A stretch of DNA of 36,568 bases from Lachnospiraceae bacterium (GTDB lineage Bacteria; Bacillota; Clostridia; Lachnospirales; Lachnospiraceae). The position numbers and the translations under genes were made by a program. The stretch spans positions 1-36,568 of the forward strand of contig JAFSLV010000001.1 in the NCBI GenBank assembly GCA_017448245.1, read 5' to 3'. The notes beneath the pieces are model-generated. The model had not been told where the DNA came from. It saw only the letters and a list, made by a program, of their open reading frames with translations, and searched no databases. Each line of letters starts with the position of its first letter. Position 1 is the stretch's first letter. Positions 17,198 to 36,567 of the stretch are shown here, piece by piece.

Positions 17198-20100
17198 TCA
17201 ATAGTCTTTTTTCTTCTTCAACAGCATCAGGTTGATCAGTCCGAAGACCGCCGCGCCGACCAGGACCTTTGCATGATTGCTTCTTTGTTCGCCCGTGATG
17301 CCGCGCCTTGCGCCGAGCACCGCTTCCGAATCCGTACGCCTTGCTCCCAACACCTGCGGTGCCGGCTGCTGCGGCGTCGGAGGGGTCTGCGGAGGGGTCT
17401 GCGGAGGAGTCGGCGGTGTGCCGGGCGGTGTCTGCGGAGGCGTTCTGGGCGGATTGTAGGTATTGCGGAAGACAGGCTCCGCCCCCGTATAACCCGCACC
17501 GTTCCTGGTCCATGTTACGGCCGCCCTGCAGGTAATGTCCCCTCTTTCATCCTTTTCTTCCGTGACGCGTACCGTCGCGGTATAGGTCGTCGCGTCGTAG
17601 GTCACATAGGGTTCGCTCCCTGCCGTTTCCCTTAATACATAGGTATAGACGCCTTCCTTGTCAAAGACCATCTCGTCGAAGGTGATGACGCGTCCCTCGT
17701 TGCTCTTGATCTGCAGCGCCGAGCCGTTGCCGTCCGAGAGGGTAAAGCTGAAGGTACGGTTCGGTGTCGCGTTGTTGAGATATTTCACCGCGGTGAATCG
17801 CACGCGCGCGGGGGTCACGTCCGGATCTTCCCTTGTATTGCGGAAGATCATCTGCTCTGCCGCCGTTTCCGTTCCTCCGCTGATGGCGGTATACGTGGTT
17901 GTCACCGACAATACTCCTTCTTTCTTTTCCGCGGTGATTTCCACGCGGTATACCGTCTCGTCGTAGACGATCTTGTATTGGCCGTCATTGATCTCTCTTA
18001 CATAGAAGGTTTTCTCTCCCTCATCCGCAAAGTGAAGATACTTCGGATCCTTCGGACGAAAGACGATCACGCCGTTTTCGTCATTCTGTGCTGTGGCTAT
18101 CTCTTGGTGATACTCGTCTTCCAGCACAAAGGTGAAGCGTTCCGCACCCGGCGCGATGTTGTTGAGCGTCTTACGCGCCTCAAGCGTTGCGTCGACCGCT
18201 TCGCCAAAGACGACCGTGCCATTGGTGCCGATGCCGCCGCCTCTTGCCGCTTCGTTGCCGCGGATGACGACAGCCGCCACGGCCTGTGCCTTGGCCTTGT
18301 CCACGGAGGAGACCACGGCCTTTGCGGCAAAGGCGTACCCGACCGGCTGGTTCATCGGAAGCGGCGTGCCAAAGGATGCGCCGTTATAGCGGGCGTCCGG
18401 ATCCGTGACCGTACCGAAGGAACTGCCGAACATCCCGCGGTCTTCGCGCCCGCCTGCCACCTTTCCGTCTTCATAGTATGTGACGCTGCCGCTGCCGAGG
18501 ATCGTGCTGTCGAGGCGTGTCGGATGTGCGGAAAAGCTCGCCACGTCCGCACCCGCCAGCTGTGCGTAGTTGTCAAAGATCGCTGCACCGCTTTTTGCGT
18601 GCACGCTGCCGTTACCCGTCGGGCAAAACCACAGACCGCCGCCCGCGCCCTGCGCATCAAGGGTGCTGCCTCCGACCGCACGGTTTCCCGTGATCAGGAC
18701 ATCCGACAGATATACGTTACATTCGGAGTTTGCGACATAGATGCCGCCGCCCGCTACGTGCGCGTGGTTATTCTCGATGAGGCCTCCGGTGATCCGTCCG
18801 TTATCGGTATGGAGGAAGAGTCCCCCGCCGTAGCCGGTGCTGCCCGCCAGACCGTCCGTCGTGCGGTTGCCCGATACGACACCGCCGCTCATGCGGAAGG
18901 CCGCCATTTTCAGAATGGTGATACCGCCGCCGTTTTCGGCGGAGTTATTGCTGACACTGCCGCCGGAGAAGGTAAAGGATGCGTTGCTTCCGCAGACCAT
19001 GATGCCGCCCGCCTGGTAGCCGCCGCGGTTTGCGCTAATCTCGCCGCCCGTCATGACGAGCGTTCCGTCATCGACAAAGACGGCGCCCGCACCGTGCTGG
19101 TTGTCCATGGCACTTGCGTCATTGTCGTGAATCCTTCCGCCGTTCATCGTAAATGTCGCGCCCTTGCCGACATAGACCGGCGCTTTTTCAATGCCTCTCG
19201 TAATGACCGTTCCCGTAATCTCTCCGCCGGTCATCGTGAACGCACCGCCTACCTTGACCGCGCCGGAGGCATTTTCTCTCTGCTCTCCGCCGAGCAGCGT
19301 GCCGCCGGACAGATGGAGCGTGCCCTTTACGTCGAGGAGTACGGTGTTCTTTGCCTGCAGGGTCAGCGCATCGTCCGCGATCGAAAGCGTACCTTCGACC
19401 ACAAAGACGGGGCCTGTCAGATCCTCAGCCGCTTCGATCAGCGAAGGACCCGCAACGGCGGATGCTGCCTGAGCCGTGCCTGCCGCTGCCATCATCGGCT
19501 GCACCGTGTTGCTGTCTGCCGTAACAAAGGTCACCTCCGTACCCGCGGGGATCGTAACCGTATGATCGATGACATAATGTCCCGTGATCTCGACGACGCC
19601 GCCCTTGTCGACCAGCGCCTGCAGGGCATCGGCGTCAAGAATATCCTGCGCGTCGCCGTTATCGTGGAATGTCGCATCCGGTAATATCTCCTGCAGCCTT
19701 GCTTTCAAACGCGCATTGGCAAAATTGACATAGACATCCGTTACGGGAAGAACCTCTGCTCTCTTTTCTTCCTCGGTCAGGGAGCTTTCGTCTCTCTGCG
19801 TTCTTTTGCGGAACGCGGTCAGGTCCACATCGGTCAGCGGTGCTTCGGGATCGATGTCAAGGATACGGAGTGCCGCGCCTTTCGCGGTTGCGAGCGGATG
19901 ATGCGCGATGCGCGCGTCAACGGCGGTCACCGGAGCACCTTCCACCGCCGCGGGGATATGCAGCGTATCGTCCGCAAAGCCGATCGCAACAAGCGTTGCC
20001 GCACCGTCCGTGATCAGATAGGTATTTCCTTCGTCCACGGCGACGGTGACGCCGGGCGCGTTATTGATATATGCGGCATCCGGCAGCATATACATCAGCT

Positions 20101-22489
20101 TGCTCAACAGCTCGAGATTCAGAACGCTGTGCGTCCTCTCCGTTACATCCAGATCCTTAAAGGCACTGAAGGATACCGCCTCGATCTGTGCGTCGGGATC
20201 GATGACGAGACGGACCTCTGTTCCTTCAAAGGTAGTGGAAGGATGCGCCATCAGATGATCCTCGATCGAAACCACTCTGTATTCCTTTTCCCCGACGGTA
20301 ATCGTCGCCGGAATGCGGATCACATTGTCCGGAAGAGCGTCCAGTGCGATCACATGCGCCGTATTTTCCGACAGCCGGTAGATCACGCCGTTTTCTTCGA
20401 TTTCTGCGCGCTCGCTTCCGTTATTGACAAAATCCGCCGAAGGGAACGCTCCTTTCGCCGCCTGATAGATCGCTTCGTGGGCAAAATTACAGGTAACGGA
20501 GACGATATCCAGGTGATCAAAGGCATTTGCCGCCACCTTTTCAAGCTTGTCATCGGGTGCCACAAGAAGCGCCAGCGACACATAGCTCGAGCTGATATCC
20601 GTATACGGATGATCCGCGATCGCTTCACCGATCTGCGTGACAGGAATCGTTTGTCCGTTCACGAGGATGGAGGCGGGGACCTCGATCGTATTGGAATAGA
20701 TGCCGTTCAGCGCAACGAGTCTGGCCTTATTGTCCGAAATAACATAGATGTTGCCGTCGCGCACACTGAGGACTTCACCGCTTTCCTCGAGAACAAAGCG
20801 CTGGCTTCTGCCGGCCGCATTGACCAGGTAACTGTCTTTAGCGGCACTCACGTTGCCCAGATAATAGAATGCGCTGCTCAGCGTATCGGCCGTCGGCGTC
20901 TTTTTGAAGATCACATCATTGACCTGTGTCGAACCAAAGGAATAGACGACCACTTCCGTGTCATTTCCTTCAAATACCACGGAGGAAACCACCGCGGCGT
21001 TTTTCATGAAGCACTGTTCCGGCAGTCTGTATACATTTTCTTTTACAAGAATCTGCTCATAGCTTCCATACGCGAAGGCAAGCGGTCCGATCGCATTGGG
21101 GGTATCCAGACCGTTACCGAGAACAATCGAGGTAAACGGGCATCTGGCAAAGGCCCACTGTCCGATCATCCGGACGCTGTCCGGAATTACGAGCTGACCC
21201 GTCAGAGGCAGATTGTAGAATGCCGTCTGACCGATTTTTTCAAGCCCTTCGGGAAGGATCAGGGTGCGTACCCCGGGGAACTTCGTGCCGTCATCATCAC
21301 GAAACGCACTGTCCGCGATTTCCGTGACACGGTACGTCATGCCCCTCTTTTCCACGGTTGCGGGGATTTCGATGGTGTCTCCGATGAGAGATGCCACGCC
21401 GCCCGTGACGAGCGCCGTTCCGTCATCCCTGAAGGTATAGGTGAGTGCGCTCTGGGATACGGCTCCCTCCCCGGCATCCGGCGTGAGGATCTGATCCGCC
21501 TCGTTCAGATACCGGAATGTATCCAACAGCGCTTCCGGATCATCGCCATACAGGATTGCCTGCGTGAGCTTGCCGTTCGTGATCTGGAACGCATAGGCGC
21601 TGCCGGAGGAAAGGGCCGTGCAATGCATCTCCAGCACATAATCCGTTTGATTCTGGCGGAATGCATATCCGAGCGTCTCAACGCCGCTGCCGATGACGAT
21701 CCTGTCAAACGAGCACAGCGTGAACGCATCGTTGCCGATCGTTCTGACGGAGTCCGGTATCACGATCGTTCCCGTGAGGGAGGATTTTGCAAAGGCCGCA
21801 TCGCCGATGGTTTCAACGCCTTCCGCGATTTCTGCCTTTTGGATCGAAGAAGCCCCATAAAACGCACGCGCGTCAATCGACGTTACGGCGTAGGTATTGC
21901 CGGCCTTCGTAGTGATATGGGAGGGAATCGAAACCGTGCTCCCGAGTACGTCAAAATCACCCGTTTTCACGGATGCTGTCATACGATCTTTATTTAAAGA
22001 ATAGACAATCCCGGAGACGCTCGCCTCATCCCCGTCTTCTTCGACAATCGTCTGCTCCGGCACAACCGCTTCCTTTTGTACCTCCGGATCAACGATCTCT
22101 TCGGGAGAATCTTCCGGGGTACCTTCCTGCTGCCCGGAATTGCTGAATAACTGCACATTCTCCGGCTGTGAATTATCCGGCTGTGTATTCTCCTGTTGCG
22201 TATTTTCCGGCTGTGTATTCTCCGGCTGTGTGTTTTCCGGCTGTTCGACCGGAATCTCCGAAGGTTGTTCCGCGGACTGCTCCTGCGAATCCTGCGGCTG
22301 CGGATCCGGTGTTGCGGTCTCCTGTGCGTTTTCCTGGGGAATGACTTCCTCCACCGTCGTTTCCGACGCGGCGTTTTCCGTCAATTCCCGTGCGTCACTC
22401 TCGCCCGAGGCCAGTGCCGTCGTGGCAAGACCAAAGGCAAGCGAGACAGAAAGAAGTACGGCGAGAATGTCTTTGATTGTCTTCCTCAT
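17198..22489 (-). CDS. Large multidomain cell-surface protein (LRR, beta-helix, pilin-type domains)
   Basis: A 1763-residue protein. The signal peptide ends near ALAS (residue 28). Then comes an acidic Gln/Pro/Glu/Asn/Thr-rich stalk with NTQPE repeats (about 83-113). BspA/LRR5-type leucine-rich repeats follow (about 155-900; IVIPDSVRTIGNDAF, LILPEGLEKIGQTAF). A parallel beta-helix with repeated MTGGEI and NNSAENGGG turns covers about 1060-1270. Two Spy0128/FctA-like domains (about 1435-1675) have a Lys in ARKTLNN/FTAVKYLNN, Glu in VREIND/LRETAG and Asn in FRNT, as expected for intramolecular isopeptide bonds. A TPP-rich spacer, two VLGARR copies, a membrane segment and KKKKDY end it. Likely an adhesin. 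No LPXTG. The ATG at 22489 follows AAGGAGGG; an ATG 11 codons upstream lacks a site. Confidence 0.9.
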   Translation of the reverse strand: MRKTIKDILAVLLSVSLAFGLATTALASGESDARELTENAASETTVEEVIPQENAQETATPDPQPQDSQEQSAEQPSEIPVEQPENTQPENTQPENTQQENTQPDNSQPENVQLFSNSGQQEGTPEDSPEEIVDPEVQKEAVVPEQTIVEEDGDEASVSGIVYSLNKDRMTASVKTGDFDVLGSTVSIPSHITTKAGNTYAVTSIDARAFYGASSIQKAEIAEGVETIGDAAFAKSSLTGTIVIPDSVRTIGNDAFTLCSFDRIVIGSGVETLGYAFRQNQTDYVLEMHCTALSSGSAYAFQITNGKLTQAILYGDDPEALLDTFRYLNEADQILTPDAGEGAVSQSALTYTFRDDGTALVTGGVASLIGDTIEIPATVEKRGMTYRVTEIADSAFRDDDGTKFPGVRTLILPEGLEKIGQTAFYNLPLTGQLVIPDSVRMIGQWAFARCPFTSIVLGNGLDTPNAIGPLAFAYGSYEQILVKENVYRLPEQCFMKNAAVVSSVVFEGNDTEVVVYSFGSTQVNDVIFKKTPTADTLSSAFYYLGNVSAAKDSYLVNAAGRSQRFVLEESGEVLSVRDGNIYVISDNKARLVALNGIYSNTIEVPASILVNGQTIPVTQIGEAIADHPYTDISSSYVSLALLVAPDDKLEKVAANAFDHLDIVSVTCNFAHEAIYQAAKGAFPSADFVNNGSERAEIEENGVIYRLSENTAHVIALDALPDNVIRIPATITVGEKEYRVVSIEDHLMAHPSTTFEGTEVRLVIDPDAQIEAVSFSAFKDLDVTERTHSVLNLELLSKLMYMLPDAAYINNAPGVTVAVDEGNTYLITDGAATLVAIGFADDTLHIPAAVEGAPVTAVDARIAHHPLATAKGAALRILDIDPEAPLTDVDLTAFRKRTQRDESSLTEEEKRAEVLPVTDVYVNFANARLKARLQEILPDATFHDNGDAQDILDADALQALVDKGGVVEITGHYVIDHTVTIPAGTEVTFVTADSNTVQPMMAAAGTAQAASAVAGPSLIEAAEDLTGPVFVVEGTLSIADDALTLQAKNTVLLDVKGTLHLSGGTLLGGEQRENASGAVKVGGAFTMTGGEITGTVITRGIEKAPVYVGKGATFTMNGGRIHDNDASAMDNQHGAGAVFVDDGTLVMTGGEISANRGGYQAGGIMVCGSNASFTFSGGSVSNNSAENGGGITILKMAAFRMSGGVVSGNRTTDGLAGSTGYGGGLFLHTDNGRITGGLIENNHAHVAGGGIYVANSECNVYLSDVLITGNRAVGGSTLDAQGAGGGLWFCPTGNGSVHAKSGAAIFDNYAQLAGADVASFSAHPTRLDSTILGSGSVTYYEDGKVAGGREDRGMFGSSFGTVTDPDARYNGASFGTPLPMNQPVGYAFAAKAVVSSVDKAKAQAVAAVVIRGNEAARGGGIGTNGTVVFGEAVDATLEARKTLNNIAPGAERFTFVLEDEYHQEIATAQNDENGVIVFRPKDPKYLHFADEGEKTFYVREINDGQYKIVYDETVYRVEITAEKKEGVLSVTTTYTAISGGTETAAEQMIFRNTREDPDVTPARVRFTAVKYLNNATPNRTFSFTLSDGNGSALQIKSNEGRVITFDEMVFDKEGVYTYVLRETAGSEPYVTYDATTYTATVRVTEEKDERGDITCRAAVTWTRNGAGYTGAEPVFRNTYNPPRTPPQTPPGTPPTPPQTPPQTPPTPQQPAPQVLGARRTDSEAVLGARRGITGEQRSNHAKVLVGAAVFGLINLMLLKKKKDY
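22155..22244 (-). repeat. 15-bp tandem repeat coding NTQPE units
   Basis: About six imperfect 15-bp units with a shared GTATTCTCCGGCT-like core (plus strand) encode the QPENT stalk repeats of the surface protein. Units differ by single substitutions (e.g. tgtgttttccgg, tgaattatccgg). Being a multiple of three, expansion or loss would keep the frame. Confidence 0.8.
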
Positions 22490-22521
22490 GATGCGACCCT
22501 CCTTGATGCACTCATAATCCA

Positions 22522-22648
22522 TATCATATTTCGGCGTTTTGTCGTGAATAATGAGTTCGGTATGATAATATCACGCAAACTATCATATAACCTATCATAT
22601 TTTCCTGTTTATTTTTATTTAATTTTTGTGGTGGGTCGGATTATGATA
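22522..22648 (-). promoter_or_regulatory. Surface-protein promoter with five TATGATA/TATCATA boxes
   Basis: The 190-bp gap before the surface-protein gene is AT-rich and holds five 7-bp boxes TATGATA or its complement TATCATA at 22522, 22561, 22581, 22593 and 22642. An extended -10 TGATATTAT (TATTAT at 22565-22570) lies among them. The boxes could be operator sites of one regulator, though low complexity makes some copies likely by chance. Confidence 0.45.
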
Positions 22649-30021: not shown

Positions 30022-31092
30022 TTATGTTAAATCATCCACACTGATGCCCTTTATGTCCTCGGAAAGCAGGCTCAGCTTGTTCAGGATATTCTTCACATCA
30101 CCGGCAACCTCGCTCTCTGCTGCGCCGTCCCGGATACTCTGAATATCAAACTGCACCGCGGATTCCGTGATGTCTGTTGACCCGGCGTTTTCCTTCTCCT
30201 GTCTTGCGGCTCTGCCGCGTGCCACAGCTTCGGCGGCCTCCGCTTCTCCGTTTGCGCGGATGCGGGCGTTCAGCTCGTCGATCTTCGCCTGCGCCTCGGC
30301 TTTCTTCGCTTCTTCCTTCTTTGCTTCCTTCTCTTCCTCTGCTTTTTCCTTTGCCTCTTCCCGCTCTTTTTCCGCTTCTTCTTCGATATGCTCCATTGCC
30401 TCCATCGTCAGCATGGACACGGCATCCTTCTCCGCAGCGCTCATGATCTCGTCGGCTTCCTTCTGCGCATCGATCATGCTGTGATCCTTCAGACGCGCCA
30501 TTTCCAGATCGGTCGTCGACTGCACGTTGGCCGCAAGCAGCGCCTCATCCTCCGCGATCGCCCGCTCGTTCGTCATGTTGTCGGCGGCATAGTACAACGC
30601 GCGTTTTTGATATTCCGAAAGCGCTTCAAACTCGTCCGCGCTCATCCCGTCCTTGGAATTTGCCTTCATGGCTGCCTTTTGCAGCCCCTGCTCCTCTTTG
30701 CTGCCTTCCTCGATCCCGTATTCCGCACGGAGCTCCGCCAGCTTTTCGTGGTTGTCATTCACCTTCTGCTTGCGGGTGCCGAGATCCTCATTTAGTCTTT
30801 TGATGGCATCCTGCATTTCCTGACGGTTTTGATCCATGCGCTTTTCATTTTCAAACGCATCACCGACGATTTTCATCGCCTGTTTTTGGGCCTGTTGTTT
30901 TCTGGCTTCGATGCTGTTTTCGCCAAGACGCAGGGAAGACGCAGAAATACTTCCATTCGGGGAATCTGCTGCTTTGGGTGTGCGCAGGCTCTTTTCATGG
31001 TTCTTTGCCCCGGTCGCAACACGAATACCGCTTTCCGGTTCGTTCCCGGAAAGAGCCGTGACGTTGATAACGTTCTGGTTTCTGATCTGCAT
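30022..31092 (-). CDS. Coiled-coil protein without signal peptide, unknown function
   Basis: This 356-residue highly charged protein has no signal peptide or membrane segment. A Ser/Asn-rich N-terminus (about 1-60) leads to long helical parts; the section around 215-275 is almost only Glu, Lys and Ala (EEEAEKEREEAKEKAEEEKE), a strong coiled coil. The region 66-80 (QQAQKQAMKIVGDAFENEKR) looks conserved. The C-terminus is a small mixed part ending in SVDDLT. I recall similar proteins only in Lachnospiraceae; no function is known to me. It sits behind a 275-nt structured leader with a sigma-D-like promoter and a CsrA-like site at its Shine-Dalgarno sequence. Confidence 0.8.
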   Translation of the reverse strand: MQIRNQNVINVTALSGNEPESGIRVATGAKNHEKSLRTPKAADSPNGSISASSLRLGENSIEARKQQAQKQAMKIVGDAFENEKRMDQNRQEMQDAIKRLNEDLGTRKQKVNDNHEKLAELRAEYGIEEGSKEEQGLQKAAMKANSKDGMSADEFEALSEYQKRALYYAADNMTNERAIAEDEALLAANVQSTTDLEMARLKDHSMIDAQKEADEIMSAAEKDAVSMLTMEAMEHIEEEAEKEREEAKEKAEEEKEAKKEEAKKAEAQAKIDELNARIRANGEAEAAEAVARGRAARQEKENAGSTDITESAVQFDIQSIRDGAAESEVAGDVKNILNKLSLLSEDIKGISVDDLT

Positions 31093-31099
31093 GGCGAAA

Positions 31100-31110
31100 A
31101 CCTCCTTGTA
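31100..31110 (-). promoter_or_regulatory. CsrA-like site overlapping the Shine-Dalgarno sequence
   Basis: CTACAAGGAGGT matches 10 of 12 positions of the CsrA SELEX consensus RUACARGGAUGU and contains the ribosome binding site of the coiled-coil gene. A second 10/12 match, GTACAGGGGAGT, lies at 31212-31223. Two sites with one on the Shine-Dalgarno is the pattern of the B. subtilis flagellin leader. AGGAGG inherently scores well, so chance is not excluded. Confidence 0.4.
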
Positions 31111-31158
31111 GCGAAGCGCATCGAGCTTCGGCTCGATTTAAAATGCGCGGAGCGTACA

Positions 31159-31186
31159 GATACGGTCTGCTTTTCAAGACCGTATC
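31159..31186 (-). other. Perfect 10-bp hairpin in leader
   Basis: GATACGGTCT and AGACCGTATC pair without mismatch across an 8-nt loop. No T-run follows on the minus strand, so it is more likely a stability or regulatory element than a terminator. Confidence 0.6.
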
Positions 31187-31372
31187 ATTTCCTTACATAT
31201 TTTGAATCCGGACTCCCCTGTACCGGACTCCTTATCCTGTGACAGCTGTCTTATATCAGTTATCGGAGCATAGCCCTGTCTTCACAACCGAAATGATATG
31301 AAACGACCTTTTTCGGGTGCGAATGGACAGCTCATTTCGATTTTAGCGTTTTAATCCACTTCTTCATATCCT

Positions 31373-31398
31373 ATATCGGCATAAAGTGGTTGTTCTTA
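31373..31398 (-). promoter_or_regulatory. Probable sigma-D (sigma-28) promoter
   Basis: Minus strand TAAG (31395-31398), 14 bp, GCCGATAT (31373-31380). The -10 is the exact sigma-D consensus; the -35 differs from TAAA at one base and spacing is one shorter than optimal. It would start a leader of about 270 nt before the coiled-coil gene. Confidence 0.6.
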
Positions 31399-31491
31399 TA
31401 TGGTTTTTGCAATATTTCATCAAAGTGCGCCCTCTGTGCCTTACAATTTCGATGTCATTCTCCCCGGGCATTTCGATGGAAAGTATGGTAA

Positions 31492-32535
31492 TCAAGCACT
31501 TTCCCAATCAATTGATGTGAGCTGTTTGATCAGATCCTCCTCCGAGGAAGCAGCTATCGTAATACGTTTTGGCTGTTCCTCCTCTGACTCTGCTTTCTTT
31601 TCCTCTGCACGCTTTTCTTCTGTCTTTTTCTCGGCAGCTTTCTTCTCCTCAGCACGCTTTTCCTTCGTCGCCTCAATCCGTTCGCGCTGCTTCTCGGATG
31701 ATTTTTCCAGTTCAGCGAAGATGGATGTACTGCCGTCTTTGTTGAATGAAATAGAAAGATTATTCAGCGTACCATTTGCACCGCTGTTTCTGCCATATCC
31801 ATATTCCTCACAAATCCGGATTGACATATCCACAGCCGTCTGCATCCTGCGCAGTTTTTCATCGGCGTATTTTTCATCATTCGCCATACGCTCCAGTTCT
31901 TCTATGTCAAAGATTACGGAGAATTCCTTCGTCCCTTGCTTTGCCAATGTCTTCCGGTCATCACCTTTTCCTGCAATTACGAAATCGTAATCACCGTATT
32001 GCTTCCGAAGCTTGTCCAGGTACTTCTGTGCATTGGTCGAGAGCTTTGATTCCGCCGTTGTTTCCTTCTCGATCTTTTTGTTAGCGCGGTCTTCCCAACC
32101 AGGATCATTGATTGCCCGGTTGGTCACCCATTTGAGCATATATTTCGCAATTCCTGCCAGATCTTCCTTCGTTCCGCCGGCATAGGCGTCTGCCTTGACC
32201 TTTTGATATTCGTTATACGCATCCGGATCAGTGACACGCATCTGTGCTTCAACCTCGGTTCCGTTGCGTCCTTTTGCCGCACTCAGTTCTTCTTCCGTCA
32301 GCTGCTTCGGTCCCTCCAGCTCTGTGATCATCCCCTCCGGGATTTCCTTATGCTCTTCCGGGAACATACCCTTATGCGCTTCAAGTGCCGCCAGACCATC
32401 TCCCGAAAACTCCACGATCACATTGTCTTCATTCTGAGAAATCGTGTCCTTTGCACCGCTTCCGGAATCGCGGGTCTTGATCGTCTCGGAGCCTATATAA
32501 TACTGACTGTAGTTTGGATGAATCGTTGTTGACAT
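31492..32535 (-). CDS. DUF6033-like protein
   Basis: This 347-residue soluble protein has no signal peptide. A polar N-terminus (MSTTIHPNYSQYY) carries ISQNEDNVIVEFSGDGLAALE. The central domain has LSTNAQKYLDKLRKQYGDYDF and KEFSVIFDIEELERMANDEKYADEKLRRM, then ICEEYGYG and SFNKDGSTSIFAELEKSSEKQ. A Lys/Glu coiled coil follows, then the end EEDLIKQLTSIDWESA. This agrees with my memory of DUF6033, found in Lachnospiraceae, but the name is unverified and function unknown. The ATG at 32535 follows AAAGGAGG; 22 upstream codons are rejected. It lies 52 bp after the Ser/Thr-rich gene, with no terminator between. Confidence 0.8.
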   Translation of the reverse strand: MSTTIHPNYSQYYIGSETIKTRDSGSGAKDTISQNEDNVIVEFSGDGLAALEAHKGMFPEEHKEIPEGMITELEGPKQLTEEELSAAKGRNGTEVEAQMRVTDPDAYNEYQKVKADAYAGGTKEDLAGIAKYMLKWVTNRAINDPGWEDRANKKIEKETTAESKLSTNAQKYLDKLRKQYGDYDFVIAGKGDDRKTLAKQGTKEFSVIFDIEELERMANDEKYADEKLRRMQTAVDMSIRICEEYGYGRNSGANGTLNNLSISFNKDGSTSIFAELEKSSEKQRERIEATKEKRAEEKKAAEKKTEEKRAEEKKAESEEEQPKRITIAASSEEDLIKQLTSIDWESA

Positions 32536-32587
32536 GATGGTTACCTCCTTTGCGTTCTTGCTTGGAACTCTTTTCGGTAATATTTGA

Positions 32588-33250
32588 TTAAACCGTTTCA
32601 TCCACAGCCACCGAGGTATCTGCGGCGGTCTGTACTTTTGCTTCCTGATCGTAACTCTTCAGATGATCATCTAACCAGGAGGACTTCATTCCGGCATATT
32701 TATCGGCTCCTTTTGTGCCGGAACTCGTCTCAACAGTAGTAGTAGCTTGTACGCTTCCATCACCTGTTTCTTCTGCTATTACCGATGTGGTTCCGTCCTC
32801 GTTCAGTTTTCTTCCGGTGACAGTTTCCGCATGCAACTTTGCTTTTGCAACCCCGGTCATTTCCGGTTCTGCTTTCTCCTTCAGATACGTATCAAGATAC
32901 GATTTACCGGAAGCGGTTGCACGCGATGTCTGCGCCTTTCCGATCGAAGAGAGATGATTATCAAGGAAGCTGCTTTTTTGTGGTGTTCTCTTTTTTATAC
33001 TGCTCACAGAGGCTGATTCAGATTCTGTTTTGGATGGGGCAAGATCAGAGGCACTATTGGCCGTTGTACCCGTACTGCGATATGCATTCAGGGCAGTCTT
33101 ATTCCCGACCTTTCTTACATAGGCTTTCATCAGCTTGCCATAGCTGCCATTCTGAATCTGTGACCGCTGTGAAATCACAGACGACATATTTGCCGCAGCA
33201 TTATAAGATCCGTTCAGACTTGAGAATAAAGGTGAAATATTGTTGCCCAT
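32588..33250 (-). CDS. Ser/Thr-rich protein with three S-aromatic-L-D motifs, unknown function
   Basis: This 220-residue protein has no signal peptide and no membrane segment. The N-terminus is polar and rich in Ser/Asn (MGNNISPLFSSLNGSYN), followed by NGSYGKLMKAYVRKVGN (34-50). Three related motifs recur in low-complexity sequence: SSFLDNHL (93-100), KSYLDTYL (116-123) and SSWLDDHL (190-197). I recall NGSYGKLMKAY-type N-termini from flagellated Lachnospiraceae, without a known function. AAAGGAGGG precedes the ATG. It lies 59 bp after the M56 gene with no terminator, so it is probably part of the blaI transcript. Confidence 0.75.
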   Translation of the reverse strand: MGNNISPLFSSLNGSYNAAANMSSVISQRSQIQNGSYGKLMKAYVRKVGNKTALNAYRSTGTTANSASDLAPSKTESESASVSSIKKRTPQKSSFLDNHLSSIGKAQTSRATASGKSYLDTYLKEKAEPEMTGVAKAKLHAETVTGRKLNEDGTTSVIAEETGDGSVQATTTVETSSGTKGADKYAGMKSSWLDDHLKSYDQEAKVQTAADTSVAVDETV

Positions 33251-33309
33251 AACGCCCTCCTTTGCTTTTTATCCAAGCTCCAAATCGCCGTTTTGAATTG
33301 TGCTCATGT

Positions 33310-34431
33310 TCATTCCACCTGCACGTGGAAACCGTCGTTTATCATCATCTCTGCCGTTTTCAGGCTGATCTCTTTCGGTGCTTCTTTTTCCGAGATGATC
33401 ACATATGTACCGTCTGCCCGTCTGAGCAAATAGGTATTGCCCGGATCTATGTAATATGCTCCGTCCTCCAGCTGCGGCGCGTCATACGCCGACTGAAAAA
33501 TAAAGGAGTAGGAGATCACAAGTAGCAGGCATGCAATGGTCAGTGCAGCTGCCGCTCCGGTATGGTCACGCTTGTTCCTGCCAATGTGCTTTGAAAGATA
33601 TTCAAATCGTTCCTTCAGTTCATCTCCGCCGGCTTTTGCGTTTTCGATCACGCCCACGCCGGTCCTTATGTGCTCCCCGGTCGTATTCCTGTATATTTTC
33701 AGAAGCGTTTCCAAATAGTCTGCCGCCTCTGCCGGTGTCATGTCTGCCGTCACCATCTTGTCGCATCTGATTTCAAATATCTGCTCCAGATTGCTCCGGA
33801 AAACATATACAAACGGATTCCACCAATAAATCGCGCAGAGTATATTTGCCAATAGCTGCACGGCCGGATCGCTGTTCTCCAAATGCGCTTTTTCGTGACG
33901 CACGATCAGCTCCGTTTCTTTTTCGCTATACCCTCCATCCGGAATGACAATTCGCTTTTCCTTTATTCCATAACTCAAGGGTACTTCCACTGCCGGTGAC
34001 TGATATATGCGTATTCCGACGTTTTTCTCTATGCCATAACCCGATGCTTCAAGTTCCCTGCCAAGTCCGCAGACGCCTTTCATCCTCGTATAGAAGCTCT
34101 TGTAATTGACAATGATCCGTATCAGAAGGATCAGTGCAATGAGTGCCCAGATGATCAACAGCAGTCTGCCGACTGTGAGCGGTACTCCCGGAATCTGTCT
34201 TCTGATAAATGTATATGCCGGATTAAACACCACCGCTGCCGATACCGCTTTTGTCCAAGGAAACTCAATGGGTATCAGCATTCTGACCGCGCCAAACGCA
34301 TACAGCACGATCATTCCCGGTATACTGCACAAATCGAGCAGCCGGCTGTTCTTTCTGAGCAATGTAAACAGCACCAGCAGGCAGCTGCTCCATACAACGC
34401 TCATCACGATTGAAAAGAAGGTGACCCGCAT
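33310..34431 (-). CDS. M56 family membrane metallopeptidase (BlaR1-like, no penicillin-sensor domain)
   Basis: This 373-residue protein has several N-terminal membrane segments (about 5-24, 38-55, 88-108), a cytosolic zinc protease domain with HEKAH (179-183, HExxH) and the distal ligand region EIRCD near 220, and a last membrane segment (about 305-322). BlaR1/MecR1 proteins cleave their cognate repressor after sensing beta-lactam through a 250-residue extracellular domain. Here only about 50 extracellular residues follow, so the signal must differ. The ATG at 34431 is one base past the blaI stop (TGAAATG), giving coupling. Pairing with the BlaI-type repressor is expected from family knowledge. 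Confidence 0.9.
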   Translation of the reverse strand: MRVTFFSIVMSVVWSSCLLVLFTLLRKNSRLLDLCSIPGMIVLYAFGAVRMLIPIEFPWTKAVSAAVVFNPAYTFIRRQIPGVPLTVGRLLLIIWALIALILLIRIIVNYKSFYTRMKGVCGLGRELEASGYGIEKNVGIRIYQSPAVEVPLSYGIKEKRIVIPDGGYSEKETELIVRHEKAHLENSDPAVQLLANILCAIYWWNPFVYVFRSNLEQIFEIRCDKMVTADMTPAEAADYLETLLKIYRNTTGEHIRTGVGVIENAKAGGDELKERFEYLSKHIGRNKRDHTGAAAALTIACLLLVISYSFIFQSAYDAPQLEDGAYYIDPGNTYLLRRADGTYVIISEKEAPKEISLKTAEMMINDGFHVQVE

Positions 34432-34432
34432 T

Positions 34433-34843
34433 TCAGTCTCCGGATGCCCGCAGCTGTCTGATGATCTGTTCCAAATCAGCAATCAGCGCATCGTTTTCTT
34501 TCCGGGTTCTTTTCTTACCTTTTTCGCCGCCTGTCATTGCCAGCGCGATGTTTGCAAGTTCACTTCGTGTAAACCCCTTTTCTGTCAACAGGCGTGCCAT
34601 ATATTCTTCCTTCGAAACAGCAGCCTCAAATTGTCTGGCATATTGTGTATTGTTACGCTCCAATCCGCTGATCCTGATGCAGCCGCGATCCAACAACGAC
34701 TGAATCGTGTTAAACAGGGTGGATTTGTTCCAGCCCTGCTTTTCCAGCGTTTCCTTCATTTCTGCGGAGGTCATGGGCTGTCCCTGTTCCCACAGCATTT
34801 CCATCATGTCCTCTTCGCGTTGGTTTAGTCTCATAGTCCCCAT
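34433..34843 (-). CDS. BlaI/MecI/CopY family transcriptional repressor
   Basis: This 136-residue winged-helix repressor has the DNA-binding part QREEDMMEMLWEQGQPMTSAEMKETLEKQGWNKSTLFNTIQSLLDRGCI (about 7-56) and a C-terminal dimerisation helix part. It should bind inverted-repeat operators and be inactivated by proteolysis by the adjacent M56 protease. GGAG lies 5 nt before the ATG; a second ATG three codons in is possible. It is the first gene after a perfect sigma-D-type promoter. A TCATAT/ATATGA inverted repeat overlaps that promoter and could be its own operator. Confidence 0.92.
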   Translation of the reverse strand: MGTMRLNQREEDMMEMLWEQGQPMTSAEMKETLEKQGWNKSTLFNTIQSLLDRGCIRISGLERNNTQYARQFEAAVSKEEYMARLLTEKGFTRSELANIALAMTGGEKGKKRTRKENDALIADLEQIIRQLRASGD

Positions 34844-34892
34844 TTATACTCCTGTTGTCCATTATTTTTGGAATAGTTCCACTTCTCTTATA

Positions 34893-34912
34893 TCATATAT
34901 CGGCTGATATGA
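34893..34912. promoter_or_regulatory. Candidate operator, inverted repeat over the -10 box
   Basis: TCATAT and ATATGA are separated by 8 bp and flank the GCCGATAT -10 element. A repressor bound here would block the promoter. It does not match the TACA-TGTA core of staphylococcal BlaI sites, so assignment to this BlaI relative is inference. Confidence 0.35.
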
Positions 34913-34923
34913 GCATATCTTTA
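34897..34923 (-). promoter_or_regulatory. Consensus sigma-D (sigma-28) promoter before blaI
   Basis: Minus strand TAAA (34920-34923), exactly 15 bp, GCCGATAT (34897-34904). Both boxes and spacing equal the B. subtilis sigma-D consensus. The predicted start near 34889 gives a 46-nt leader before blaI. The run blaI-M56-Ser/Thr-rich protein-DUF6033-like gene has no obvious terminator and would be transcribed from here. Confidence 0.75.
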
Positions 34924-34990: not shown

Positions 34991-36025
34991 TTATCTGTGC
35001 ATCCCGAGCATATCCCACATGATCTGTGCGTCTGTTTCTGACAGCGGTTCATAAGCGATCCCGTCGAATTCATAAAACATACCGGAAATGGCTGTGTATT
35101 TCAGCCTGTCAATCTCATGATAGGGCGTCACAATCGTCAGATATCTTGTCATGCGCACTTCCTGATGCATGTTCTCCATATTTCCTGATGTATCCGCATC
35201 CTGACTGCCGAGTTGTATTCTGTCCCATTGGTCCCGCCCATAACAGGTCATACTGCCCAGGATACGGTATAACTCATGAAGCGAATGACGGTCCGTTATG
35301 CTGCGGGTTCCGATTTCCTGCTGAATCCGGATGCCCTCGGGCGTATTATCCATATTCCCGGCTGACACAACGAGTTCCGCAAAACCATCTGCGGAGTGAA
35401 TATCATAAATCTGCGTCAATACGTCCCGGTACGGATAACCCTCTGCGTCAAAACACACAAACTTCCACAGAGAGGCCGCATTGTCCTGCACCTGAATCAG
35501 GTATTGCTTATCTGTATGTCCGCTGACATAATAGAGCCCTTCGTTCTCCAGGAAAACGCTCCCCCTTGATGCATAAAGCTCCTCGCGGAATGCTTCTCCG
35601 CCATCATTTCCTACGCCTTCATACACGGCAGTATATGATCCGATGGGAATCTGCATTATTTTCTGCGCAAGTTCTTCCGTGGCAGCTGCCTGTCCGCTGC
35701 CGGCCGCAGCGAGAAGCTCCTTCACATCCACAAAGCGCTCATCCCCGGAAGATGACTCCGTAACCATACCGCCTGTATCCCCTTCCGTTTGCGCCGTAAT
35801 CTCAATCTCAGCAGGTTCCGTCTCAGCTTCCGCTGTTTCCATTTCCATGTTCCGACGCGTTTGCGCCATCTGATATGCTATCCCGGACACGATGAGCAGA
35901 ACAGCGGCAGCGCAGATCGGAACCAGCCATTTCACAGGGTGCCTTGTTCTTGCTGCCGGCATAGATTCGATGATAAACGACTCTGATACATTTCCCAGTG
36001 CATAAAGAATCCGTTCCTGTTTCAT
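34991..36025 (-). CDS. Single-pass membrane protein, probable anti-sigma factor
   Basis: This 344-residue protein has a short cytosolic N-terminus (MKQERILYALGNVSESFI), one membrane segment (about 32-52), an acidic linker and an extracellular domain of about 240 residues without a recognised fold. This layout is typical of the membrane partners of ECF sigma factors in Clostridia, and the start overlaps the sigma factor stop by 4 bp (ATGA), strong evidence of coupling. The frame extends 42 codons upstream into the sigma gene, but that part is antiparallel in no sense a family N-terminus and is rejected. The extracellular signal is unknown. A 147-bp gap separates it from blaI. Confidence 0.8.
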   Translation of the reverse strand: MKQERILYALGNVSESFIIESMPAARTRHPVKWLVPICAAAVLLIVSGIAYQMAQTRRNMEMETAEAETEPAEIEITAQTEGDTGGMVTESSSGDERFVDVKELLAAAGSGQAAATEELAQKIMQIPIGSYTAVYEGVGNDGGEAFREELYASRGSVFLENEGLYYVSGHTDKQYLIQVQDNAASLWKFVCFDAEGYPYRDVLTQIYDIHSADGFAELVVSAGNMDNTPEGIRIQQEIGTRSITDRHSLHELYRILGSMTCYGRDQWDRIQLGSQDADTSGNMENMHQEVRMTRYLTIVTPYHEIDRLKYTAISGMFYEFDGIAYEPLSETDAQIMWDMLGMHR

Positions 36026-36567
36026 AAAACGACCCCTTTCTCCTTCATCAGCTTTTTCAGCCTTTTCCTTGAACGCATCAGCGACATCTTTATGGCGCTT
36101 TCCTTCAGCTTCATTTGTCCTGCGATTTCTTTGATCGAGAGCATATGCCAATACCGCCGCATAAAGATGATCCGGTTTTGCACGGTCAGATCGGACAGGA
36201 ATCCGTTCAGCAATTCTGTCAGCTCCATGTCATTAATGATCCTGTCCGCAAAATCCTCCGACGGTATGCATTCCAGCAGTTCGTCCAAAGCCGCCTCCAT
36301 GTGCCCTCCGCCGCGTTTAGATGCCATCCGCAGCTTCACCCGGTCAAGCGACAGATTGCGTGTGATTCTTCCAAGAAACACAGACAGGATCTCCGGCTTC
36401 TTTGGCGGCATGCTGTCCCATGCACGCAACCATGTATCACTGACGCATTCCTCACTGTCACGGTCATTCCGTAGAATGCGATATGCGATCGCATGACAAT
36501 AGCGACCGTATTTACGGTTTGTCTCGGCAATCGCCGACTCATCCCGCGCATGATATAATTCAACGAT
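36022..36567 (-). CDS. ECF-type RNA polymerase sigma factor (5' end outside window)
   Basis: The frame is open to the window edge: 181 sense codons are present and only the first few residues should be missing. Region 2 is seen as IVELYHARDESAIAET, YGRYCHAIAYRIL and SEECVSDTWLRAWDSMPP; region 4 as NRIIFMRRYWHMLSIKEIAGQMKLKESAIKMSL and RSRKRLKKLM, a helix-turn-helix for the -35 box. An internal ATG at 36427-36429 would drop region 2 and is not the start. The stop overlaps the membrane partner's ATG. This is a two-gene sigma/anti-sigma module. Confidence 0.9.
   Translation of the reverse strand: MVELYHARDESAIAETNRKYGRYCHAIAYRILRNDRDSEECVSDTWLRAWDSMPPKKPEILSVFLGRITRNLSLDRVKLRMASKRGGGHMEAALDELLECIPSEDFADRIINDMELTELLNGFLSDLTVQNRIIFMRRYWHMLSIKEIAGQMKLKESAIKMSLMRSRKRLKKLMKEKGVVL

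Follow-up and report, generated by a model that had tools for sequence, protein, structure and literature searches.

A probable late-flagellar accessory locus under sigma-28 control in a Lachnospiraceae genome

Why a BlaI/MecI-type repressor and an M56 membrane protease should share a locus with a Ser/Thr-rich (STrich) protein, a DUF6033 protein and a coiled-coil protein is the question raised by a stretch of DNA from a Lachnospiraceae bacterium (GenBank assembly GCA_017448245.1, contig JAFSLV010000001.1): the window analysed comprises 36,568 bases and is contig C11 of a 2.54 Mb genome in 48 contigs. An initial annotation of this DNA had proposed that the locus is controlled by the flagellar sigma factor sigma-28 (SigD/FliA), that its three downstream products are exported by or associated with the flagellum, and that a protease-relieved repressor adds a second input. 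Our analysis indicates that this is probably a late-flagellar accessory locus: its promoters, regulon, genomic co-occurrence, recurring gene order and the relation of one protein family to FliD were computed, and autorepression by BlaI, triggering through M56 and export would complete the picture. Since the locus carries sigma-28 promoters and its relatives are found almost only in flagellated genomes, the five genes are probably overlooked parts of the flagellar programme.

The five genes and both GCCGATAT elements sit where they had been placed previously (Table 1), with the start codons of the M56 and DUF6033 genes refined from their ribosome-binding sites to positions 34431 and 32535. When both strands of the window were searched for TAAA-N14-16-GCCGATAT with at most one mismatch, just two places were found, and these fall in the two long gaps of the locus, upstream of genes and on the correct strand, the first with the perfect TAAA-N15 arrangement; gaps, orientation and perfect match are as originally observed. 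The -10 element of this exact site stops 53 bp before the BlaI start, and the second octamer (31373-31380, minus strand) lies about 280 bp before the coiled-coil start, its -35 element being readable as TAAG-N14 or TATA-N16 with one mismatch. In 1000 dinucleotide shuffles of the BlaI gap a perfect site never arose and a site with at most one mismatch arose 5 times, the latter figure being 8 for the coiled-coil gap; the octamer alone occurs three times in the window (1.49 expected), a number reached in 19 of 100 shuffles. Flagellin genes of Lachnospiraceae are described as having sigma-28 promoters of the form TAAA-N15-CCGATAT, together with a Butyrivibrio variant, in the promoter passages of Neville et al. 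2013 (PMC3720852). Together with the occurrence of the motif across the genome, the promoters of homologues and the co-occurrence with FliA and FlhA set out below, these sites make sigma-28 control of the locus, as proposed in the initial annotation, very likely.

Table 1. Genes and candidate regulatory elements of the locus (positions within the window).
Feature	Position	Strand	Basis
BlaI/MecI-family repressor, 136 residues	34433..34843	-	PF03965, E 4.4e-9
M56 membrane metalloprotease, 373 residues, HEKAH	33310..34431	-	PF05569, E 7.5e-31
Ser/Thr-rich protein (STrich), 220 residues	32588..33250	-	FliD_C-related family by N-terminal motif FSSLNG..NGSYGKLMKAY
DUF6033 protein, 347 residues	31492..32535	-	PF19498, E 5.1e-37; extra N-terminal domain
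Coiled-coil protein, 356 residues	30022..31092	-	homologues beside DUF6033 in other genomes; helical model
Very likely sigma-28 (SigD/FliA) promoter of BlaI operon, TAAA-N15-GCCGATAT	34897..34923	-	exact; matrix score 21.7
Second sigma-28-like promoter, for coiled-coil gene, TAAG-N14-GCCGATAT	31373..31398	-	matrix score 18.0
13-bp palindrome TGGAATAGTTCCA, candidate BlaI operator	34869..34881		between -10 and BlaI start; from sequence alone

The genome itself encodes FliA (at C47), FlhA, flagellin, FliD, two FlgK-like proteins, FlgN, FlgM and FliW, and the exact sigma-28 motif occurs 11 times in it, compared to twice for the reversed pattern. By our reading, eight of these 11 have a correctly oriented gene downstream of them: the BlaI operon, fliD (613 bp from its site, maybe separated from it by a small gene), one flgK-like and one chemoreceptor-like gene, and genes for a GGDEF-FIST protein, an HtrA-like (trypsin-PDZ) protease and two large proteins of surface type (by eye). 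The sites before the last four (at L050, L051, L042 and L052; L, G and C numbers are our handles for loci, genomes and contigs) suggest a wide regulon.

The DUF6033 family provides a first line of comparative evidence. The window protein, previously called DUF6033-like, is a true member (128.2 bits against a PF19498 cut-off of 25); we know of no function for this family, and the term does not occur in the CC-licensed PMC literature. Its homologues were taken from 80 loci, the best 80 of at least 422, of which two were dropped as too short; with starts chosen by a heuristic, 40 of the remaining 78 have, in the 300 bp upstream, a sigma-28 site with no more than one mismatch, 18 of these sites being perfect, whereas the controls gave none (opposite strand 0/78, reversed motif 0/78, three kb upstream 0/70). 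Of 150 sampled genomes of the bacterial family, 45 gave a DUF6033 match at E 0.001, with 44 of these passing the cut-off, and 79 passed the cut-off for FliA; only those 79 were counted as having FliA, because TIGR02479 matches all 150 weakly through other sigma factors. FliA was present in 44 of the 45 DUF6033 genomes (Fisher p=5.6e-15), and the lone genome without it over the cut-off (G042) has FlhA. A phylum sample of 299 genomes yielded 10 with a DUF6033 match at E 0.001, and FlhA was found in all 7 that pass the cut-off and in 1 of the 3 sub-threshold genomes, being absent from the other 2. Homologues common in non-flagellated genomes, named at the outset as evidence that would speak against the proposal, were thus not seen above the DUF6033 cut-off in the family or phylum samples; the description of the proteins as lineage-restricted needs correcting for DUF6033, which extends beyond a single bacterial family, 3 of those 7 genomes belonging to other families. 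Searched with the window protein, 75 of 79 genomes of the genus gave a match, and its extra N-terminal domain exists as a separate gene at L284 and L285. In the window's own genome flgM is directly preceded by a DUF6033 paralogue (L048:4353-5620, G000:C21:92352-93619); no FlgM turned up beside the other 29 DUF6033 loci examined, loci L101-L180 not having been searched for it.

A second line of evidence comes from the STrich protein which, like the coiled-coil protein, has no Pfam match at E 1. Iterated profiles place it in a family of two branches: the first, including the window copy, has an N-terminal motif around NGSYGKLMKAYY, and the second begins MR[IV]T..ML and is tied to the window copy solely via the iterated profile. 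FliD_C (PF07195) is over the cut-off in six of eight scanned members outside the genus (L056, L062, L131, L151, L139 and L200; 1.7e-7 to 2.2e-12), not over it in L059, L132 or the shorter congeneric L084, and unmatched in the window copy; no scanned member, window copy included, matches FliD_N. Judged by these similarities, the STrich family is related to the filament cap protein FliD. A profile (A6) built from 16 members matches 66 of the 150 family genomes, a figure that overstates the family since some matches are FliD itself by frame length, and 63 of the 66 have FliA over the cut-off (p=6.2e-23), or 55 of 57 once matches weaker than 1e-25 are dropped with the own genome kept. The three exceptions are G042, G006 and G119, and FlhA, sought in G042 and G006, is present in both. 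The window copy matches A6 over model positions 8-92 only, and in place of the FliD_C of other members it carries three [FYW]LDxHL repeats; these repeats are also present in its paralogues and could be a binding motif. Upstream sites with at most one mismatch are fewer than for DUF6033 (7/37, of which 6 belong to the second branch, and 3/40), with none on the opposite strand or for the reversed motif in either set. With a matrix derived from 38 of the 40 DUF6033 sites of at most one mismatch (36 for the scan of L284, L285 and L294), 19 of 61 STrich family members score at least 10, versus 1 of 61 on the opposite strand and 2 of 61 for the reversed motif. Three side observations concern this family: the paralogous pair on C43 keeps the order STrich-DUF6033; a FlxA-like gene (L097:7664-8437, PF14282, 1.3e-21) lies directly upstream of one STrich homologue, flxA of E. 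coli being a FliA target; and beside a groEL-like gene (by eye) there is an STrich gene in G207 (L084:8592-9074) and a 53-codon piece in the window's genome (L083:4860-5021).

The coiled-coil family is smaller, its profile finding 20 distinct open reading frames (ORFs) including the window's own and one fragment, and it is linked to DUF6033: 17 of the 80 loci have a member close to DUF6033, in 12 of them immediately downstream. The order FliD_C-type gene (second branch), DUF6033, coil occurs in six other loci (L123, L131, L148, L153, L162 and L178; in L153 the first gene is masked by an overlapping longer ORF in one neighbour listing), and the window order STrich, DUF6033, coil matches it, with about 400 bp between the last two genes and a site belonging to the coil gene itself. 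The predicted model consists mostly of long helices, with 10-residue means of the predicted local distance difference test of about 90-97 over residues 61-250. Several distinct small families likewise recur beside DUF6033.

Thus, with one family related to FliD and a DUF6033 paralogue next to flgM in the same genome, the association with the flagellum that had been suggested gains support, and a functional link of the locus to it is likely. Whether the three proteins are exported is less clear. As had been claimed, none has a signal-peptide-like stretch in a Kyte-Doolittle scan (best 12-residue mean -0.13 to 0.45, compared to 2.18 for M56), and they belong to families unusually poor in cysteine: 90 of 109 DUF6033, 27 of 38 STrich and 12 of 19 coil proteins have none, versus 14 of 326 neighbouring ORFs of 200-380 residues, a background from a simple longest-ORF caller that includes some false ORFs. 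FlgN and FliW are cysteine-free too, so that low cysteine is only a hint of export, and one FlgK-like protein has 6 cysteines. Judged on these sequence features, flagellar export would be compatible with the lack of signal peptides and the scarcity of cysteine, and we regard the chances as evenly balanced. A cytoplasmic role, in which the proteins would be sigma-28-controlled chaperones or scaffolds for late export, DUF6033 being the constant component and the small proteins its variable partners, is a possible if somewhat weaker reading: it is in keeping with the several small families beside DUF6033, with the charged helical tails and with the low cysteine content of FlgN and FliW, but the FliD_C relation of one family suggests an axial, exported relative, and the contrast in cysteine-free proteins with neighbouring ORFs also argues for export.

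With regard to the BlaI-M56 pair, the window M56 has the HExxH motif (HEKAH) and is the sole M56 match in its genome; its 373 residues contain no Pfam match to a penicillin-binding sensor domain, and it scores 64.7 bits against NCBIfam blaR1 (cut-off 400). BlaI-M56 lies upstream of relatives of the three downstream (cassette) genes in five other loci. Starting from the cassette side, linkage was found in 1/80 (L139), 0/20 (L081-L100, three own-genome), 0/40 and 3/19 congeneric loci (L284, L285 and L294, the first two representing one type of locus in two genomes), with chance adjacency over all these counts put at about 0.2 by a rough hand estimate; starting from the M56 side, it was found in 1 of 26 loci of relatives (L200), in which a lipoprotein-type gene stands between M56 and an STrich gene with its own site (score 15.8). 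The congeneric loci (L284:1888-8629, L285:7976-13860, L294:6880-11416) are longer cassettes, in which further small families (A-D) separate M56 from STrich or coil; one of these, family C, is found after STrich in L139 as well. Since the M56 genes of L139, L284, L285 and L294 match the window M56 profile at only about 1e-13 to 1e-21, repeated recruitment of M56 is as likely as common descent. Three candidates were not counted: the gene after M56 in L199 (G022), considered as possibly related to the N-terminal domain of DUF6033 (hhalign probability 1.2 to A4; blastp E 0.004 to the window protein over 61 residues), the BlaI-M56 pair of L164, which lies 3.5 kb past DUF6033, and the BlaI without M56 that L150 has 9.6 kb away.

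As to operators, BlaI operons of C. thermocellum are reported to be self-regulating in the relevant passages of PMC8457756, and those of PMC5772342 state that CopY, which is related to MecI/BlaI, has the operator TACAxxTGTA. The palindrome TGGAATAGTTCCA is the only GGAANNNTTCC in the window, and no similar dyad was seen before the BlaI genes of relatives; other dyads near the BlaI promoter were rejected as AT-rich and unsupported by relatives. The TACANNTGTA box is absent from the window, although operators of BlaI proteins vary and this type is not strictly defining. L139 has one such box, as TTACATTTGTAA, which overlaps a sigma-A-like promoter (by reading) before DUF6033 and precedes a two-mismatch sigma-28 site of that gene; the pattern is present in 43 of 204 loci and so this box could be chance. 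Overall we lean towards BlaI acting on the window operon. The second input put forward in the initial annotation is plausible, given the recurrence of BlaI-M56 beside cassette genes and the L139 box; in most other BlaI-M56 loci BlaI lacks a clear sigma-28 site. The opposing possibility, that BlaI-M56 is a passenger which hitchhikes on a sigma-28 operon or regulates another target with no effect on the three genes, appears to us the less probable one: M56 relatives are common (122 of 299 genomes of the bacterial family at E 1e-10) and 25 of 26 of their loci are not linked to cassettes, but this is the sole M56 match of the genome, the pair stands directly beside cassette genes in 4 of the loci reached from the cassette side, and both the L139 box and the self-regulation in C. 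thermocellum argue against a mere passenger.

Besides the rarity of linkage seen from the M56 side, the missing TACANNTGTA box and the cysteine data for FlgN, FliW and FlgK, several results weigh against a late-flagellar locus switched by sigma-28. No near-consensus site precedes 38 of the 78 DUF6033 homologues; same-genus STrich copies often lack one (scores of 2.4 for C38 and -1.5 for G207), and the copy on C48 ties with its own opposite strand at 11.9. None of 19 coil family members has a site of at most one mismatch within 300 bp, a count that misses the window's own since it starts 306 bp out, and the lack of a nearby promoter is as expected inside an operon. Before the other BlaI genes no clear site was found either (9.0 in L139, 6.0 in L200, none of at least 12 in L284 and L285), and in L294 the site lies before an upstream regulator-like gene. 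Of the 11 exact sites that the genome contains, 3 lack a correctly placed gene, so that some sites are chance. That both GCCGATAT sites are chance motifs in a locus unrelated to motility, as these three sites and the frequency of the octamer alone might suggest, is nevertheless very improbable in view of the statistics of the two-part motif, the promoters of homologues and the flagellar co-occurrence.

Two further features of the window deserve mention. Upstream of the locus (34991-36540, minus strand) are a gene for an extracytoplasmic function sigma factor and a possible anti-sigma gene (weakly RskA_C-like, E 0.017): the two genes share the orientation of blaI and end 147 bp before it, and read-through into the operon is possible. 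Further away (17198-22522, minus strand) lies a gene for a surface-type protein of 1774 residues with an apparent C-terminal membrane anchor (by eye).

In flagellated bacteria generally, free SigD is available once the hook is finished and FlgM has been exported. At this stage free SigD would transcribe blaI-M56-STrich-DUF6033 from 34897 and, from 31373, the coiled-coil gene. BlaI would probably bind close to its own promoter and repress the operon for as long as it has not been inactivated by M56, which an envelope signal would trigger. With motility and this signal both present, a shortened FliD_C relative, the DUF6033 protein and a long coiled-coil protein would be released, their most likely exit or site of action being the flagellar export gate. 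More tentatively, flagellated Lachnospiraceae may possess a sizeable and rapidly changing repertoire of flagellum-exported proteins switched on by sigma-28, comprising FliD_C mini-proteins, DUF6033, coiled-coil proteins and further small families; some of the cassettes would be gated by BlaI-M56, with an envelope or niche signal required for release in addition to motility. These findings place the uncharacterised DUF6033 family, with its promoters, in the flagellar programme and connect it with a family related to FliD; should the proteins be exported, annotation has missed a flagellum-borne secretome in these bacteria. They also suggest that a protease-operated repressor switch, of the kind known chiefly from antibiotic resistance, may act on top of sigma-28.

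Comparison with known systems reveals both common and distinct traits. The locus resembles the BlaI/BlaR1 (MecI/MecR1) switch in having a Penicillinase_R repressor followed by an M56 HExxH protease in one operon, but differs in the M56 protein without a detected penicillin-binding sensor, the sigma-28 promoter and the other downstream genes. Similarity to FliD_C connects relatives of the window STrich elsewhere with FliD (PF07195), whereas the family, mostly of about 220-280 residues, lacks FliD_N in the scanned members and has the short motif NGSYGKLMKAYY in one branch, the window copy itself having no FliD_C match. For DUF6033 (PF19498) the relationship is one of membership. Finally, the promoter passages of PMC3720852 tie sigma-28 promoters to flagellin genes and do not name the protein families of the window, but the promoters they describe in Lachnospiraceae are of the same type as those of the locus, at a similar distance from the gene, with an agreeing consensus and in the same bacterial family.

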